Below are positions 2,671 to 6,854 of a stretch of 64,000 bases of DNA, piece after piece. The notes under the pieces were generated by a model, which was not told where the DNA came from, did not search any database, and saw only the letters and a list, made by a program, of their open reading frames with translations. The position numbers and the translations under genes were made by a program. Positions within the stretch are counted from its first letter, which is position 1. Each line of letters begins with the position of its first letter. Origin of the DNA: Corynebacterium pollutisoli (lineage in GTDB: Bacteria; Actinomycetota; Actinomycetes; Mycobacteriales; Mycobacteriaceae); contig NZ_FXAR01000002.1 of NCBI RefSeq assembly GCF_900177745.1, positions 1-64,000 on the forward strand, written 5' to 3'.

Positions 2671-3426
2671 ATGGCATCTGTCTGGAAGTTCCTCGTCGGC
2701 GTGCTCGTCGGCCTTCTCGTTCTGCTGCTCGTGGTGGAGTTCGGCCTGCGCTGGTTCATCGGCAACGAGCTGCGCTCCAGCTTCGAGGAGCAGGCCGCCG
2801 CTGACGGGGTGACCATGGAGGAGGATCCGACGATCGCCTTCGGCAGCACCCCGCTCGTGCTGTCCGCGGTGCAGGGCACGATCCCCGACGTGGAGATCAC
2901 CACCCCGTCCACCCTGCAGGCCACCGACCAGGGTTTCCTCGGCCAGCCGCGCGCGCACGTCGTCCTCACCGACCTCGACATCTCCGACACGGACAACCCG
3001 GTCGCCGCCCACATGGTGGCCACCACCGAGGTGCCGGACGAGTTCCTCCTGGACACCGTCCAGCGCGCCATGCGGGAGGAGGGTGCCGACGGCGGTCTCG
3101 TCCAGATCACCGGCCTCACCGCCAACACCGTCGACAACACGCTCGACCTGGAGTTCAACGGCGGAGCAGCCGTGCTCAACCTCATCCCCCGCCCCGTCGA
3201 CGGCAACCTCACCTTCGAGGCGGCCGGCGCGTCACTGTTCGGGTTCGGCCTGCCCCAGCAGGTCTCCGACCTCATCACCCGCGGCCTGCAGCAGGGCGTG
3301 CAGGAGCAGGCCGGTGACTTCCGGATCGACGCCTTCGACGTCATCGACGGCGGTGCCCGCCTGCAGCTCAGCGGCGAGAACGTGGCCCTCAGCGAGGTGG
3401 CGGACACACAGCTGCCACGTCGCTGA
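2671..3426 (+). CDS. LmeA-like (DUF2993) phospholipid-binding protein
   Basis: The product of 251 residues begins with an uncleaved signal anchor (about residues 5-25, FLVGVLVGLLVLLLVVEFG) followed by a soluble extracytoplasmic domain of DUF2993/LmeA type, rich in short beta strands. In mycobacteria LmeA acts in the periplasm and supports lipomannan elongation; a similar envelope role here is inferred from family membership. The last 38 bases overlap the 3' end of the convergent DeoC-like gene. Confidence 0.7.
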   Translation: MASVWKFLVGVLVGLLVLLLVVEFGLRWFIGNELRSSFEEQAAADGVTMEEDPTIAFGSTPLVLSAVQGTIPDVEITTPSTLQATDQGFLGQPRAHVVLTDLDISDTDNPVAAHMVATTEVPDEFLLDTVQRAMREEGADGGLVQITGLTANTVDNTLDLEFNGGAAVLNLIPRPVDGNLTFEAAGASLFGFGLPQQVSDLITRGLQQGVQEQAGDFRIDAFDVIDGGARLQLSGENVALSEVADTQLPRR

Positions 3427-3961
3427 CCGCGACCCGGTCCGCGCCCGCGTCGAGAGCGTCGATGACGGCGTCGAGGGAATCGGCCAGGAGGGTGTGCGGC
3501 AGATCCCCGCTCATCGACGTCCCCACCAACCGCTCCGCCCCCGCCAGCGCGGCCGCGTCTGCCAGGGCGCGGGCGGAATCCGCGCCACGCCCCGCATCGA
3601 GGTGGACGGCCAGGGTGACCGGCGGCGGCACGGCCTCCCGCACGGCGACGATCTCCGCCAGCAGGGCGTTGGGGTCCGCGATGTGGGGGTCGGTGGCCAA
3701 CCAGATCTCCGTGGCCCCCTGTGCGACGGCCAGCCGGGCCTCCGCCGCCTTCACCAGCGTGTGATGACGCCCGGAGGGCCAGCCCACGACCGCGGCGACC
3801 GTCAGACCCTCCGTGTCCCCCGACGACTGCAGGGTGGAGGGGGCGAGCACCACGCCCCGCAGGCCCGCGGAGCGGGCCCGGTCGACGCCGTCGCCGACGA
3901 CGGGGGCGTCGACAAGCAGAAGAAAAGCGTGGCCCGAAAGCCACGCTGCGTCACTGGTCAC
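3389..3961 (-). CDS. degenerate DeoC-like protein without catalytic residues
   Basis: The 190-residue product aligns by eye with deoxyribose-phosphate aldolase: AAVVGWPSGRHHTLVKAAEA matches the family's strand-helix block VVGFPLG...KxxEA. However, the Schiff-base motif FxKTSTG is replaced by RLVGTSMSG, the second lysine motif VGFKPAGG is absent, the aspartate of GADEVD reads GATEIW, and the N-terminal DHTLLKP block is missing. It is therefore unlikely to be an aldolase. GTG 3961 overlaps the upstream DUF2516 stop as GTGA, which fixes the start; the longer upstream frame runs out of frame through DUF2516. The position matches deoC of related genomes. Confidence 0.7.
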   Translation of the reverse strand: MTSDAAWLSGHAFLLLVDAPVVGDGVDRARSAGLRGVVLAPSTLQSSGDTEGLTVAAVVGWPSGRHHTLVKAAEARLAVAQGATEIWLATDPHIADPNALLAEIVAVREAVPPPVTLAVHLDAGRGADSARALADAAALAGAERLVGTSMSGDLPHTLLADSLDAVIDALDAGADRVAVSDVAAVCPPPR

Positions 3962-4245
3962 CAGCCGTAGTTGCCGTTGACGATGGACTTGAGGTGCGGA
4001 CGCACATCGAACCAGTAGACGCCGATCGCCACGATGCCGGCCCACGACAGGAACGGCACGCGGGTGATCACCACGAAGGCGGAACCGACGAGGATGGCCA
4101 CCCAGATCCACTTCGACTGCCGGTCACCCGCCTGGTAGGCGTCGTCGCGCGTCGTCACCGCGAACGCGGCTCCCACCACACCGCACAGGGCGATGAGGGC
4201 GTAGAGGATCATTTCGAAGAGATTGAGACCGGCGATCAGCGACAT
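3958..4245 (-). CDS. DUF2516 family membrane protein
   Basis: The 95-residue protein has two or three hydrophobic segments (about residues 10-30, 47-63 and 66-80) separated by a charged loop TTRDDAYQAGDRQSKW, and fits the actinobacterial DUF2516 family (Rv0476-like). The function is unknown. It lies 8 bases after the helical protein gene at 4254 and overlaps the DeoC-like gene by four bases, so it sits mid-operon. In Mycobacterium the order hbhA-Rv0476-Rv0477-deoC is comparable. Confidence 0.75.
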   Translation of the reverse strand: MSLIAGLNLFEMILYALIALCGVVGAAFAVTTRDDAYQAGDRQSKWIWVAILVGSAFVVITRVPFLSWAGIVAIGVYWFDVRPHLKSIVNGNYGW

Positions 4246-4253
4246 GATGGTTC

Positions 4254-4946
4254 TTAATTGTCCTTGGTGTTCGGGGGCGGGACGTCCTCGGTGCTGACGA
4301 CCTCGCCGTCAATCATATGCGGCACGCCTTCTTCCGTGGTGGTCGAGGGGGTCTCATCCTTGTCGACGACCGTGCCGGCACGCGCAATGAGGTCGTCGAG
4401 GCGGGCGCGCAGATCGTCGATGAAGGAACGCTCACCCTCGGTCTCCGTGGCGGCACGGCGGGCGCGGGCCTGCTCGACGGTCTCGTCGAAGGTGGCACGC
4501 ACGGAGGCGACGGCGCTGTGGAAGGCGGACTTCGCCTCGGTGGCGGAGGTGGAGTCCTTCGTCTCACCCGCGGCGCGACGGGCGGAACCCGCGAGATCAC
4601 GGATGATCTCCTCCGCGCGGCTGGCGAAGTTGAGGGACACGTTCTTGTAGTCCTCGGTGGACTTGGCACCCGACAGACCCGCGCGGGCCTCCTGGGTGGC
4701 CGTGCGGAAACGCTCCTTCGCCGACTCCTTGCCCACGTTGGCCGCGTCACCGGAGTACACGCTGTGCACGTCGGAGGGGGCGTCGGTGCGCTCACGGTCC
4801 GCGCGGAAGCGCTCCCCGAAGTCGGAGACCACGTCGCCGAGACGGGCACCGGCGGAGACCCAGGCCTGGAAGGGCTCACGCAGGTTGTCCAGCACGGAGT
4901 TGTTCTGCTCGGGGGTGGTGTTGGTGTTGTCGTTCGGGGAGGTCAC
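4254..4946 (-). CDS. Ala/Glu/Arg-rich helical protein at the HbhA position
   Basis: The 230-residue product has no signal peptide or membrane segment and is almost entirely predicted helix, with long stretches such as ARAGLSGAKSTEDY and SAVASVRATFDETVEQARAR and an acidic C-terminus. I do not recognise a functional domain; homologues appear to be confined to corynebacteria. GTG 4946 is chosen because AAAGGGA lies 7-8 bases upstream; GTG 4973, which overlaps the DUF445 stop as GTGA, would add nine residues. It sits where mycobacteria carry hbhA, but the Lys/Pro/Ala adhesin tail is lacking. Confidence 0.6.
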   Translation of the reverse strand: MTSPNDNTNTTPEQNNSVLDNLREPFQAWVSAGARLGDVVSDFGERFRADRERTDAPSDVHSVYSGDAANVGKESAKERFRTATQEARAGLSGAKSTEDYKNVSLNFASRAEEIIRDLAGSARRAAGETKDSTSATEAKSAFHSAVASVRATFDETVEQARARRAATETEGERSFIDDLRARLDDLIARAGTVVDKDETPSTTTEEGVPHMIDGEVVSTEDVPPPNTKDN

Positions 4947-4969
4947 GGGACTGTCCCTTTCTGTGTCGG

Positions 4970-6295
4970 TCACGCTCCGAAGAGCAGGTGATTCACAGTG
5001 TAAATAGCTAATCCGGCGAGCGCACCAACAATTGTTCCGTTGAGCCTGATGAACTGCAGATCCTTGCCCACCATGAGCTCGATCTTGTCGCTCGCCTCCG
5101 CCGCGTCCCAGCGCTCCACGGTCTCCGAGATGATGGCCGTGACCTCGCCCGCGTAGTTGTCCGCCAGGAAGGCCGCCGCGCCGGTGATACGCCGGTCGAG
5201 GCTGGCGCGCAGCTGCGGATCCGTCTGGATGTTCGTGCCCCATGTGACACACAACTCGGAGATCTTGGTGCGCAGCAGGGACGTCTCGTCCTCGGCGGCG
5301 TCGATGAGCGAGGCCGAGGCGGTCGCCCAGATCGCGGCCGCCGCCCCCTGCACCGGGGTCGAACCCAGCAGGTCGTGCTTGAGACCCTCGATGCGCGCGA
5401 TCATCGTCGGATCGTGCTGCAGGTCCTCGGCCAGATCCTGCAGCGCCCGGCGAATCGCGTGCCGGGCCTCGTGCTCCGGATCATTCGCGACGGCCGCCGT
5501 GAACCCCACCAGCTCCTTGTACACCTTCGCCCCGACGAGATCCTTCGCGAACTTCGGTGCCCACTGCGGCGTCCGCTCGTCGATGAGACTGATGACGGTC
5601 TCCTCCATCCCCAGCACCTTCCGGTGCGCCCAGGTGACGACCTCCTGCACCACCGGCTCCGTGCGACCGTCCTCGATGAGGTCGGCGAGCAGGCGGCCGG
5701 CGGGCGGACCCCACTGCGGCTCCGTGAACCGGTCGATGAGCTGGGTCTGGATGAGCAGCTCCGCGTCCTTCGGGTCGAGGGCCCGGACCGCGTTGGCCGT
5801 CAGCCGCCCGGCCTCCCGGGACACCTTCTCCGCATTGGGTTCCTGGGCCAGCCAGGAGCCGAGCTTCTCGGGGATGTTCGCCGAGGACACCTTCTCGGTG
5901 ATGAGCTCCGCGTTGAGGAAGTTCTCCCCCACGAACTCCGACAGCGCCTGACCCAGCTGGTCCTTCTTCTTCGGGATGAGCGCCGTGTGCGGGATGGGGA
6001 TCCGCATCGGGTGGCGGAACAGGGCGGTCACCGCGAACCAGTCCGCCAGACCACCCACCATGCCAGCCTCCGCGGCCGCGCGGACGTACCCCACCCACAC
6101 CGGGGCCCCACCCGGCTGGTTCTGCCACCAGCTGCACGCCAGGAAGATGACCGCCGCCACCACCAGGAGGCTGGTGACGAAGATCTTGTGGTTCCGCAAC
6201 GTGCGGCGACGCTGCGCCTCGACCTCCGGGCTGGGACCGGGGACGGAGCGGGCGTCGCGAAGCTCGAGCTGACTGTGCCTACCCATGTCGACCAT
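4970..6295 (-). CDS. DUF445 membrane protein
   Basis: The 441-residue protein has a membrane segment at about residues 38-57, the DUF445 hallmark AGMVGGLADWFAVTALFRHP near residue 79, a long helical central region and a C-terminal hydrophobic segment GALAGLAIYTVNHLLFGA. The family is widespread and of unknown function. ATG 6295 lies 5 bases after the stop of a 29-residue membrane microprotein, suggesting coupling; ATG 6286 is an alternative, with GATAAT at -13 to -8. The downstream gene starts at or just past its stop. Confidence 0.85.
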   Translation of the reverse strand: MVDMGRHSQLELRDARSVPGPSPEVEAQRRRTLRNHKIFVTSLLVVAAVIFLACSWWQNQPGGAPVWVGYVRAAAEAGMVGGLADWFAVTALFRHPMRIPIPHTALIPKKKDQLGQALSEFVGENFLNAELITEKVSSANIPEKLGSWLAQEPNAEKVSREAGRLTANAVRALDPKDAELLIQTQLIDRFTEPQWGPPAGRLLADLIEDGRTEPVVQEVVTWAHRKVLGMEETVISLIDERTPQWAPKFAKDLVGAKVYKELVGFTAAVANDPEHEARHAIRRALQDLAEDLQHDPTMIARIEGLKHDLLGSTPVQGAAAAIWATASASLIDAAEDETSLLRTKISELCVTWGTNIQTDPQLRASLDRRITGAAAFLADNYAGEVTAIISETVERWDAAEASDKIELMVGKDLQFIRLNGTIVGALAGLAIYTVNHLLFGA

Positions 6296-6300
6296 TATCC

Positions 6301-6390
6301 TCAGAGCATCTCGAAGGCGAGCATGAGGATGTTGATCGACGTGAGGATCGTGATCAGCGTGATGAGGACGATGATGATGTTGCGACGCAC
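6301..6390 (-). CDS. 29-residue membrane microprotein
   Basis: GTG at 6388-6390 opens a 30-codon frame ending TGA at 6301-6303. The product, beginning MRRNIIIVLITLITILTS, is one hydrophobic helix preceded by two arginines, an inside-positive single-span topology. TAGGCT lies at -13 to -8 from the GTG, which fits leaderless transcription, and GGGGGA is also close. Its stop is 5 bases before the DUF445 start, so both should be on one transcript. No family is recognised; translation is inferred. Confidence 0.6.
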   Translation of the reverse strand: MRRNIIIVLITLITILTSINILMLAFEML

Positions 6391-6422
6391 GTCCCCCAGC
6401 CTACGGACCCGACAACGGCGAA

Positions 6423-6449
6423 GGCCCGCCCCCGGGGTGGGGACGGGCC
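6423..6449 (-). terminator. probable terminator after the sdh operon
   Basis: GGCCCG (6423-6428) pairs with CGGGCC (6444-6449), and the inner C and G tracts extend the stem. It lies 28-54 bases beyond the stop of the membrane protein gene at 6477. The U-tract is poor, so the call is moderate. Confidence 0.45.
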
Positions 6450-6476
6450 AGACGGGCCGAAAGACGTCAGCTGAAG

Positions 6477-6854
6477 TTAGTTGATGCGTCCGGTGGTGTC
6501 GCGGTACTCGCGGTAGTAGCGACGACCGCGGTGGATGAGACCGAAGCCGGCGGCCAGCAGAACAACTGCGATGACGGCGCCGATGATCATGTACAGCGTG
6601 GTGTCGTACTCGGCGACGGTGACGCCCTGACCCCAGATGAGGGTCGCGGCCATCCAGATCATGATGCCGAAGCCCGCCAGGGAGGTGAGCACCAGACCCA
6701 TGCCGATCCAGGTGGAGGAGCGCTCCAGGGAGGAGTGCGGCGCACTCAGGGAGTTGGGCTCGTAACCGTCGATGTAGGAGTCGTGGAGCTTCGGAGCGTA
6801 GTCCGGGAAGCTCTCGGATGCCTGATCGGCGACCGCAAAGTTGTTGGAAGCCAT
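6477..6854 (-). CDS. small membrane protein linked to sdhCAB
   Basis: The 125-residue product has a hydrophilic N-terminal half and two membrane segments (about residues 50-72 and 86-108), then a basic tail RGRRYYREYRDTTGRIN. No catalytic motif is visible. It follows sdhB by 43 bases on the same strand and ends at a terminator-like hairpin, so it is the last gene of the sdh transcript. The same arrangement is found in other corynebacteria. A role with succinate dehydrogenase is only suggested by position. Confidence 0.7.
   Translation of the reverse strand: MASNNFAVADQASESFPDYAPKLHDSYIDGYEPNSLSAPHSSLERSSTWIGMGLVLTSLAGFGIMIWMAATLIWGQGVTVAEYDTTLYMIIGAVIAVVLLAAGFGLIHRGRRYYREYRDTTGRIN

Follow-up and report, generated by a model that had tools for sequence, protein, structure and literature searches.

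A degenerate DeoC homolog is conserved beside DUF2516 in much of Corynebacterium and bears a terminator-like hairpin in its first codons in one species group

Results

The window analyzed here, i.e., a 64,000-nucleotide stretch of Corynebacterium pollutisoli contig NZ_FXAR01000002.1, contains a run of genes on the minus strand that begins with a gene for a DUF445 protein (4970-6295) and continues with those for a CGLAU_01105 family protein (4254-4946; NF040480, 212.8 bits; start codon assigned by eye) and a DUF2516 protein (PF10724; 3958-4245). Directly downstream of DUF2516 lies a degenerate deoC (pseudo-aldolase; 3389-3961), which forms an open frame of 190 codons with a GTG start at 3961 and a stop codon at 3389-3391, in agreement with a preliminary description of this DNA in which the frame had been called intact. 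The gene shares its first 4 nt (GTGA, 3958-3961) with the end of DUF2516, an arrangement that may couple the translation of the two. At its 3' end the gene overlaps tail-to-tail with a convergent LmeA-like gene on the plus strand (2671-3426), over 38 bp (3389-3426).

The TIGR00126 profile matched residues 39-149 of the window protein with 37.0 bits (E 2.4e-9), which is below its cut-off of 117.3, and the Pfam DeoC profile (PF01791) gave 13.4 bits, under its cut-off of 23.8. The best solved relative by sequence was the Mycobacterium smegmatis DeoC 3ndo (PDB, E 2.2e-9). Homology to DeoC is thus real, yet weak at the sequence level. In a family alignment with Escherichia coli DeoC, the catalytic positions D16, C47, D102, K167 and K201 were occupied by F13, V38, W87, V146 and T157, respectively, the counterpart of K167 being G147 when the two proteins were read pairwise. 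Hence all three of the residues that mark a DERA/DeoC enzyme, i.e., K167, K201 and Asp102, are absent, and the preliminary description was correct in reporting that both lysines, the acid residue and the DHTLLKP block are missing. The place of Asp102 is codon 87 (3701-3703, minus strand), with Trp in 64 of 91 degenerate relatives, and that of the Schiff-base Lys167 is codons 146-147 (Val-Gly; 3521-3526, minus strand), with Lys in none of the 91. The possibility that the catalytic lysines had been displaced elsewhere was checked by alignment and rejected, because the sole lysine of the protein, the non-catalytic K71, is the helix alpha3 lysine that is shared with intact enzymes and present in 97-100% of each DeoC group examined.

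The loss extends to the whole set of degenerate relatives: among the 91, K167 and D102 are retained in none, K201 in one, C47 in 12 and D16 in three. All five catalytic residues are kept in 20/20 sampled second copies and in 26/26 outgroup copies compared (outgroup rows in our alignments representing 27 of 57 genomes). Amongst 20 DUF2516-linked rows classed as intact, which contain genome G163 twice (L040 and L232), 19 or 20 keep the residue at each catalytic position, the exceptions being G015, with Asn for D102, and one partial row. A further partial sequence (L234) was left out of this tally, of the alignment with E. coli DeoC and of both AU-test sets described below.

A search for a true second deoC in the same genome, as proposed in the preliminary description, found one at G000:C5:503095-503709 (220.1-220.6 bits), adjoining deoA (501837-503009). 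Its 214-residue product resembles the 190-residue window protein in superfamily and in sharing the HH and K-x-x-E-A block, but differs in carrying all five catalytic residues. In the protein tree, 20 sampled second copies clustered with sequences from other genera (98*), apart from the DUF2516-linked genes, which suggests that the second copies are a later acquisition. Above-cut-off deoC genes elsewhere in the genome were found in 46 of the 91 genomes with a degenerate gene, and none in the other 45. No TIGR02644 (deoA) match above cut-off was found in any of these 45 genomes. The missing deoA proved uninformative as a mark of pathway loss, 23 of the 24 genomes whose locus encodes both lysines also being without it.

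DUF2516 was found in 200 of the 201 Corynebacterium genomes searched, and the locus was surveyed in the 150 with a DUF2516 place among the matches listed. A degenerate DeoC was present at 91 of these loci, an above-cut-off DeoC within 10 kb at 29, and no DeoC nearby at 30. The 91 are ORFs that scored >25 bits against a profile of 10 seed rows, eight of them degenerate, so that frameshifted copies would be missed, and they include two matches apart from DUF2516 (G091, 808 nt; G097, 1627 nt). All 91 lie on the DUF2516 strand. A scan seeded with the family also detected it in, for example, C. lemuris, C. hylobatis, C. alimapuense, C. flavescens, C. minutissimum, C. striatum, C. tuberculostearicum, C. 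aurimucosum and C. propinquum; the K/R-TSTG motif was missing in 50 of the 80 loci kept from that scan, a share biased by the degenerate seed. The degenerate proteins of G007 and G087 (L119, L121) have a low-complexity insertion ahead of the conserved core.

Among 57 genomes from 30 other genera of the family, deoC above cut-off is present in 56. In 49 of the 57, a deoC gene sits downstream of DUF2516 at a distance of up to 11 kb, and in 41 the two genes share a strand. Because of this position in 49 of the 57, we take the DUF2516 locus to be the ancestral place of deoC. Lost copies seem to go cleanly, since tblastn over 0.3-2.4 kb at each of the 30 gene-less loci found no deoC remnants.

The 29 above-cut-off loci comprise 24 with both lysines and five that encode full-length proteins without them. 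In G041, G062, G120 and G160, K167 is replaced by Arg and K201 by Glu or Ala, and each genome also has a second intact deoC with deoA. Such full-length proteins, with the same replacements and D102 retained, occur in C. meridianum, Corynebacterium sp. TAE3-ERU16, C. marambiense and C. pygosceleis (L258, L262, L265, L288), whose genomes score 163.5-169.4 bits, over the TIGR00126 cut-off. G173 (L347; 140.8 bits, likewise over the cut-off) has K167 replaced by Ala, K201 by Thr and D102 by Gly; no second deoC was found in this genome, and its closest relatives are intact. A similar lysine-less state was seen in the DeoC of C. mendelii (L315), at 98 bits.

Long branches make the trees of these proteins unsure. 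A single origin was not rejected by the AU test for the 95 lysine-less proteins (p 0.53) or for 96 including G173 (p 0.42), and the 91 degenerate proteins alone as one clade gave p 0.286. The best tree places G173 with intact relatives (starred set of 4), and its starred branches force three label changes. The partial sequence L040 was left out of the tree and of both AU-test sets, and L232 out of the 95-protein test.

The AlphaFold2 model of the window protein, built from a 56-row alignment, reached a pLDDT of 96.3 and a pTM of 0.91, and superimposed on 3ndo over 188 residues with an rmsd of 2.1 (VIA-align, Z 26.1). It has eight strands, with strands 6 and 7 not separated by a helix; a shrunken TIM barrel of the DeoC type is predicted with high confidence. 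A conserved core occupies codons 50-117 (3611-3814, minus strand), predicted as beta3-alpha3-beta4-alpha4, with the pattern GWPSGRHHxxxKAxEARLA...GAxEIW. Near-invariant residues (94-100% of 91), i.e., G60, P62, G64, H66, H67, K71, A72, E74, A75, R76, G82 and A83, map to the loop after strand 3 and to helix 3. Published work on E. coli DERA places K58, D82 and A95 in the dimer interface, and helices 5-7, which lie beside the lysine strands, opposite to it (PMC4725968). By alignment, D82 corresponds to H67 and A95 to A80 of the window protein, and in the model the kept face is that of the DERA dimer (helix alpha3), the decayed face being that of the lysines. Gln stands at the place of A95 in 62 of the 91 degenerate proteins, and the dimer contact itself would therefore have changed in most of them. 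We infer that the kept face is a protein-protein interaction module.

In the C. minutissimum/C. tuberculostearicum group, the protein occurs in short forms of about 146-176 residues (L253, 3965-4402, and relatives). The 146-residue C. minutissimum form was modeled with seven strands (pLDDT 95.3, pTM 0.88), aligns to 3ndo residues 14-192, and seems to be without the last strand.

We calculated dN/dS by the NG86 method on 84 pairs preselected for similarity, of which 82 (dS <1.5) were used, the pairs being non-independent. The median for the degenerate genes was 0.17 overall, 0.06 in a 65-codon core and 0.22 in the rest, and DUF2516 gave 0.09 over the same pairs. Pairs of intact DUF2516-linked deoC genes gave 0.04-0.12 at dS <0.6 and 0.13-0.32 at dS 0.8-1.2. 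Against its nearest relative, G075, the window gene had a dN/dS of 0.318 (p 2.4e-7), with 0.141 (p 4.9e-5) in the core and 0.402 (p 2.7e-4) in the rest. The non-core part could not be told apart from neutral against G176 (0.663, p 0.085) and G140 (0.820, p 0.21), and the core remained constrained in both comparisons (0.121, p 7.7e-10, and 0.137, p 8.8e-9, respectively). The degenerate deoC is therefore constrained mainly in its core, and less so than the active gene, given the low values in the core, the weak constraint outside it and the lower values of intact pairs. A pseudogene would be marked by a disrupted frame or relaxed selection; here the frame is open and dN/dS against the nearest relative is well below one.

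The start of the gene holds a further feature. A hairpin of nine pairs with a 4-nt loop, resembling an intrinsic terminator, lies at 3926-3947 on the minus strand (codons 5-12), 10 nt past the DUF2516 stop, and is followed by the U-rich tail TTTCTTCTGC (3916-3925, minus strand; codons TTT CTT CTG and on). Hairpin and U-tract together span codons 5-16. The 3' arm and the tract encode GHAFLLL where intact enzymes have DHTLLKP, with Phe (TTT) at the place of Asp16. Taken alone, this single hit is uninformative, because shuffles of the scanned region gave 0.9 such sites on average. We scanned the junction at all 150 loci over a stretch that began 20 nt ahead of the DUF2516 stop and ended 130 nt past it. 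Hairpins were present at 12 of 95 loci classed as lysine-less (11 alike, including the window, plus G031), at one of 30 empty loci and at six of the 25 remaining above-cut-off loci, where DUF2516 and deoC are not neighbors. In control stretches taken from the 91 degenerate loci, such hairpins numbered 0, 2 and 3 of 91.

The 11 alike loci account for all but one of the 12 members of the window's tree group (support 80); the remaining member, G097, is a long-branch match at a distance of 1.6 kb from DUF2516. With G029 and G170 (L012, L013), which were picked for their similar protein start and also carry the hairpin, 13 relatives including the window share a GC-rich stem followed by a U-tract, which is absent from G097 and from the next relative, G155, whose protein still reads VDLTLLTPD. 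Pairing in the stem held in 117/117 cells of the 13 sequences. Covariation is thin: one of nine pairs changes on both sides (A-U/G-C), with a score matched by 15/500 shuffles and a pair count matched by 200/500, and change at these sites is also limited by the protein code. Of the 13 sequences, six were folded and gave z-scores of -2.4 to -4.7, compared with -0.7 in G155.

Codon choice also sets the segment apart. Phe is encoded by TTT in 14/14 cases in the tract versus 3/22 elsewhere in the same genes, and TTT accounts for 0/49 Phe codons in the sdhA, DUF445, CGLAU_01105 and DUF2516 genes of the window. GC3 amounts to 0.56 within the tract and 0.85 elsewhere (p 4.7e-7, related sequences being counted as independent), and codons for the same residue agree in 0.77 of the pairs compared for the hairpin segment versus 0.58 in the rest (11 sequences). 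Rfam returned no match within 3300-4300 of the window, and a scan for the sigma-70 consensus found no promoter-like site in 3300-6500. The hairpin was rejected as a repeated genome element, as one exact copy only was found. We regard it as likely that, in the window's species group, the gene carries a stop signal for transcription within its first codons. Because selection still acts on the downstream core in the hairpin relatives, their pseudo-aldolase is presumably still made, through read-through or translation gating.

A different terminator-like hairpin occurs in the first codons of the degenerate deoC in the C. propinquum group (L170, L291, L282); its sequence was not seen in C. pseudodiphtheriticum (L290).

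Discussion

The window protein is like DERA/DeoC (TIGR00126, PF01791) in predicted fold, ancestry, locus, the FPxG and KxxEA block and the alpha3 region, but unlike it in having no K167, K201, D102, C47 or DHTLLKP and in scoring below the curated cut-offs. A homologous fold (predicted), lost catalytic residues and a conserved gene are among the features of a pseudoenzyme. Since the catalytic residues are lost and yet the gene is conserved in many corynebacteria, the protein probably has a new, non-enzymatic job. The preliminary description had left a choice between an early pseudogene and such a protein; the latter fits both the loss and the conservation, and the former is not supported, as discussed below. 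That description contained neither the extent of the loss across much of the genus nor the terminator-like hairpin at the place of DHTLLKP.

The explanation that we favor, with fair though by no means full confidence, is that of a conserved pseudo-aldolase that acts as an interaction module and whose expression would be gated, in the window's group, by a terminator inside the ORF. A vertically inherited family deoC, beside its old neighbor DUF2516, would have lost aldolase catalysis within Corynebacterium, with retention of a catalysis-free TIM-barrel protein. The kept face with alpha3 would mediate self-association or contact with a partner, for which the co-encoded DUF2516 protein is a candidate, and the lysine face would have been free to decay. 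The hairpin would probably end many DUF445-CGLAU_01105-DUF2516 transcripts, and ribosomes that resume translation at the overlapping GTG would unfold it, allowing the pseudo-aldolase to be made, i.e., translation-coupled attenuation. The weak constraint outside the core for some pairs of the window's group and the thin covariation of the hairpin count against this explanation. The link to DUF2516 may also be one of inherited gene order only, because above-cut-off deoC genes overlap DUF2516 as well (a gap of -4 in 11 of 22 loci, start codons having been picked nearest the DUF2516 stop, which favors small gaps), and because DUF2516 persists at the 30 of 150 listed loci without a nearby DeoC. DUF2516 positions that might track the pseudo-aldolase were sought and set aside: a few differ by group (W39, 0.75/0.23/0.04), but kinship explains them equally well. 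We consider it rather doubtful that, after catalysis was lost, the DHTLLKP block was rewritten as a terminator controlling its own protein via translation of the upstream gene that overlaps it, and that the barrel is a DUF2516-linked interaction module in much of Corynebacterium.

A new enzyme is an unlikely alternative, if one to be taken seriously. It would catalyze a different reaction at another active site, made up of the RHH motif that follows beta3 and of Asp91 where beta4 ends. In the model (DSSP), H66-H67 come after strand 3 and D91 after strand 4, at the end of the barrel at which TIM-barrel active sites lie; conservation in the 91 degenerate proteins is 94% for H66 and H67, 97% for K71, 100% for E74, 98% for R76 and 85% for D91. 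However, H66, K71, E74 and D91 are also present in 96-100% of 26 outgroup enzymes and may thus be structural, Trp fills the place of Asp102 in 64/91, the 146-residue form was modeled with only seven strands, and the Gly-Gly after K201, which we take to be the phosphate loop of DeoC, is absent from the window protein. We find it very unlikely that the protein is instead a prozyme, i.e., a non-catalytic partner that regulates intact DeoC through mixed dimers: the alpha3 dimer face is kept and 46/91 genomes have an above-cut-off deoC elsewhere, but the protein persists in the 45 that have no other. A comparable case is plant PDX1.2, a non-catalytic TIM-barrel paralog that has kept the enzyme fold after loss of the catalytic lysine and works together with its active paralog; those 45 genomes without a second DeoC above cut-off set the corynebacterial protein apart from it.

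That the gene is an early pseudogene, still in frame, is highly improbable. The catalytic residues are indeed lost and the non-core parts evolve fast, but median dN/dS is 0.17 over the 82 pairs and 0.06 in the core, the comparison of the window with G075 is significant (p 2.4e-7), the loss is common to 91 of the 150 genomes listed, and no remnants were detected by tblastn at the 30 gene-less loci (0.3-2.4 kb each). As to the hairpin, it might be the plain end of the DUF2516 operon, the pseudo-deoC being expressed ungated from its own promoter or from a later start, which we judge to be quite improbable. Terminator-like hairpins do follow DUF2516 at the six of 25 other above-cut-off loci with a non-adjacent deoC, and an in-frame ATG stands right behind the U-tract in six of the 13 sequences; yet the window gene has no such ATG, the N-terminal W-L stretch occurs in hairpin-less relatives too, and the sigma-70 consensus scan of 3300-6500 gave no promoter-like site.

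We found no pseudo-DeoC and no publication on DUF2516 in the open-access literature, and our literature search yielded no essentiality data. In C. glutamicum, one transposon insertion in deoC (ort-cg0458) was recovered with an anti-cell-wall antibody screen and read by the authors as metabolic (PMC7775120). In a C. diphtheriae screen, insertions in deoC_1 (DIP0273) were enriched at pH 5 (PMC12022263); since it is listed together with deoR (DIP0267), DIP0273 is probably the intact copy.

Pseudoenzymes are known; here, a bacterial TIM-barrel aldolase appears to have persisted without catalysis at a single locus in 91 of the 150 genomes listed, and for half of the 91 our search revealed no second DeoC, which makes it a clean case for uses of a metabolic fold beyond catalysis. 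The five lysine-less full-length members above the DeoC cut-off would be called active by cut-off annotation. ORF-internal RNA 3' ends and premature terminators, with a termination signal within the coding sequence, are described for E. coli (PMC7815308). Unlike the cases given there, the putative signal reported here lies in the first codons of the downstream gene, in 13 corynebacterial relatives, and offers a testable example of a stretch that encodes protein and probably also signals to the transcription machinery.
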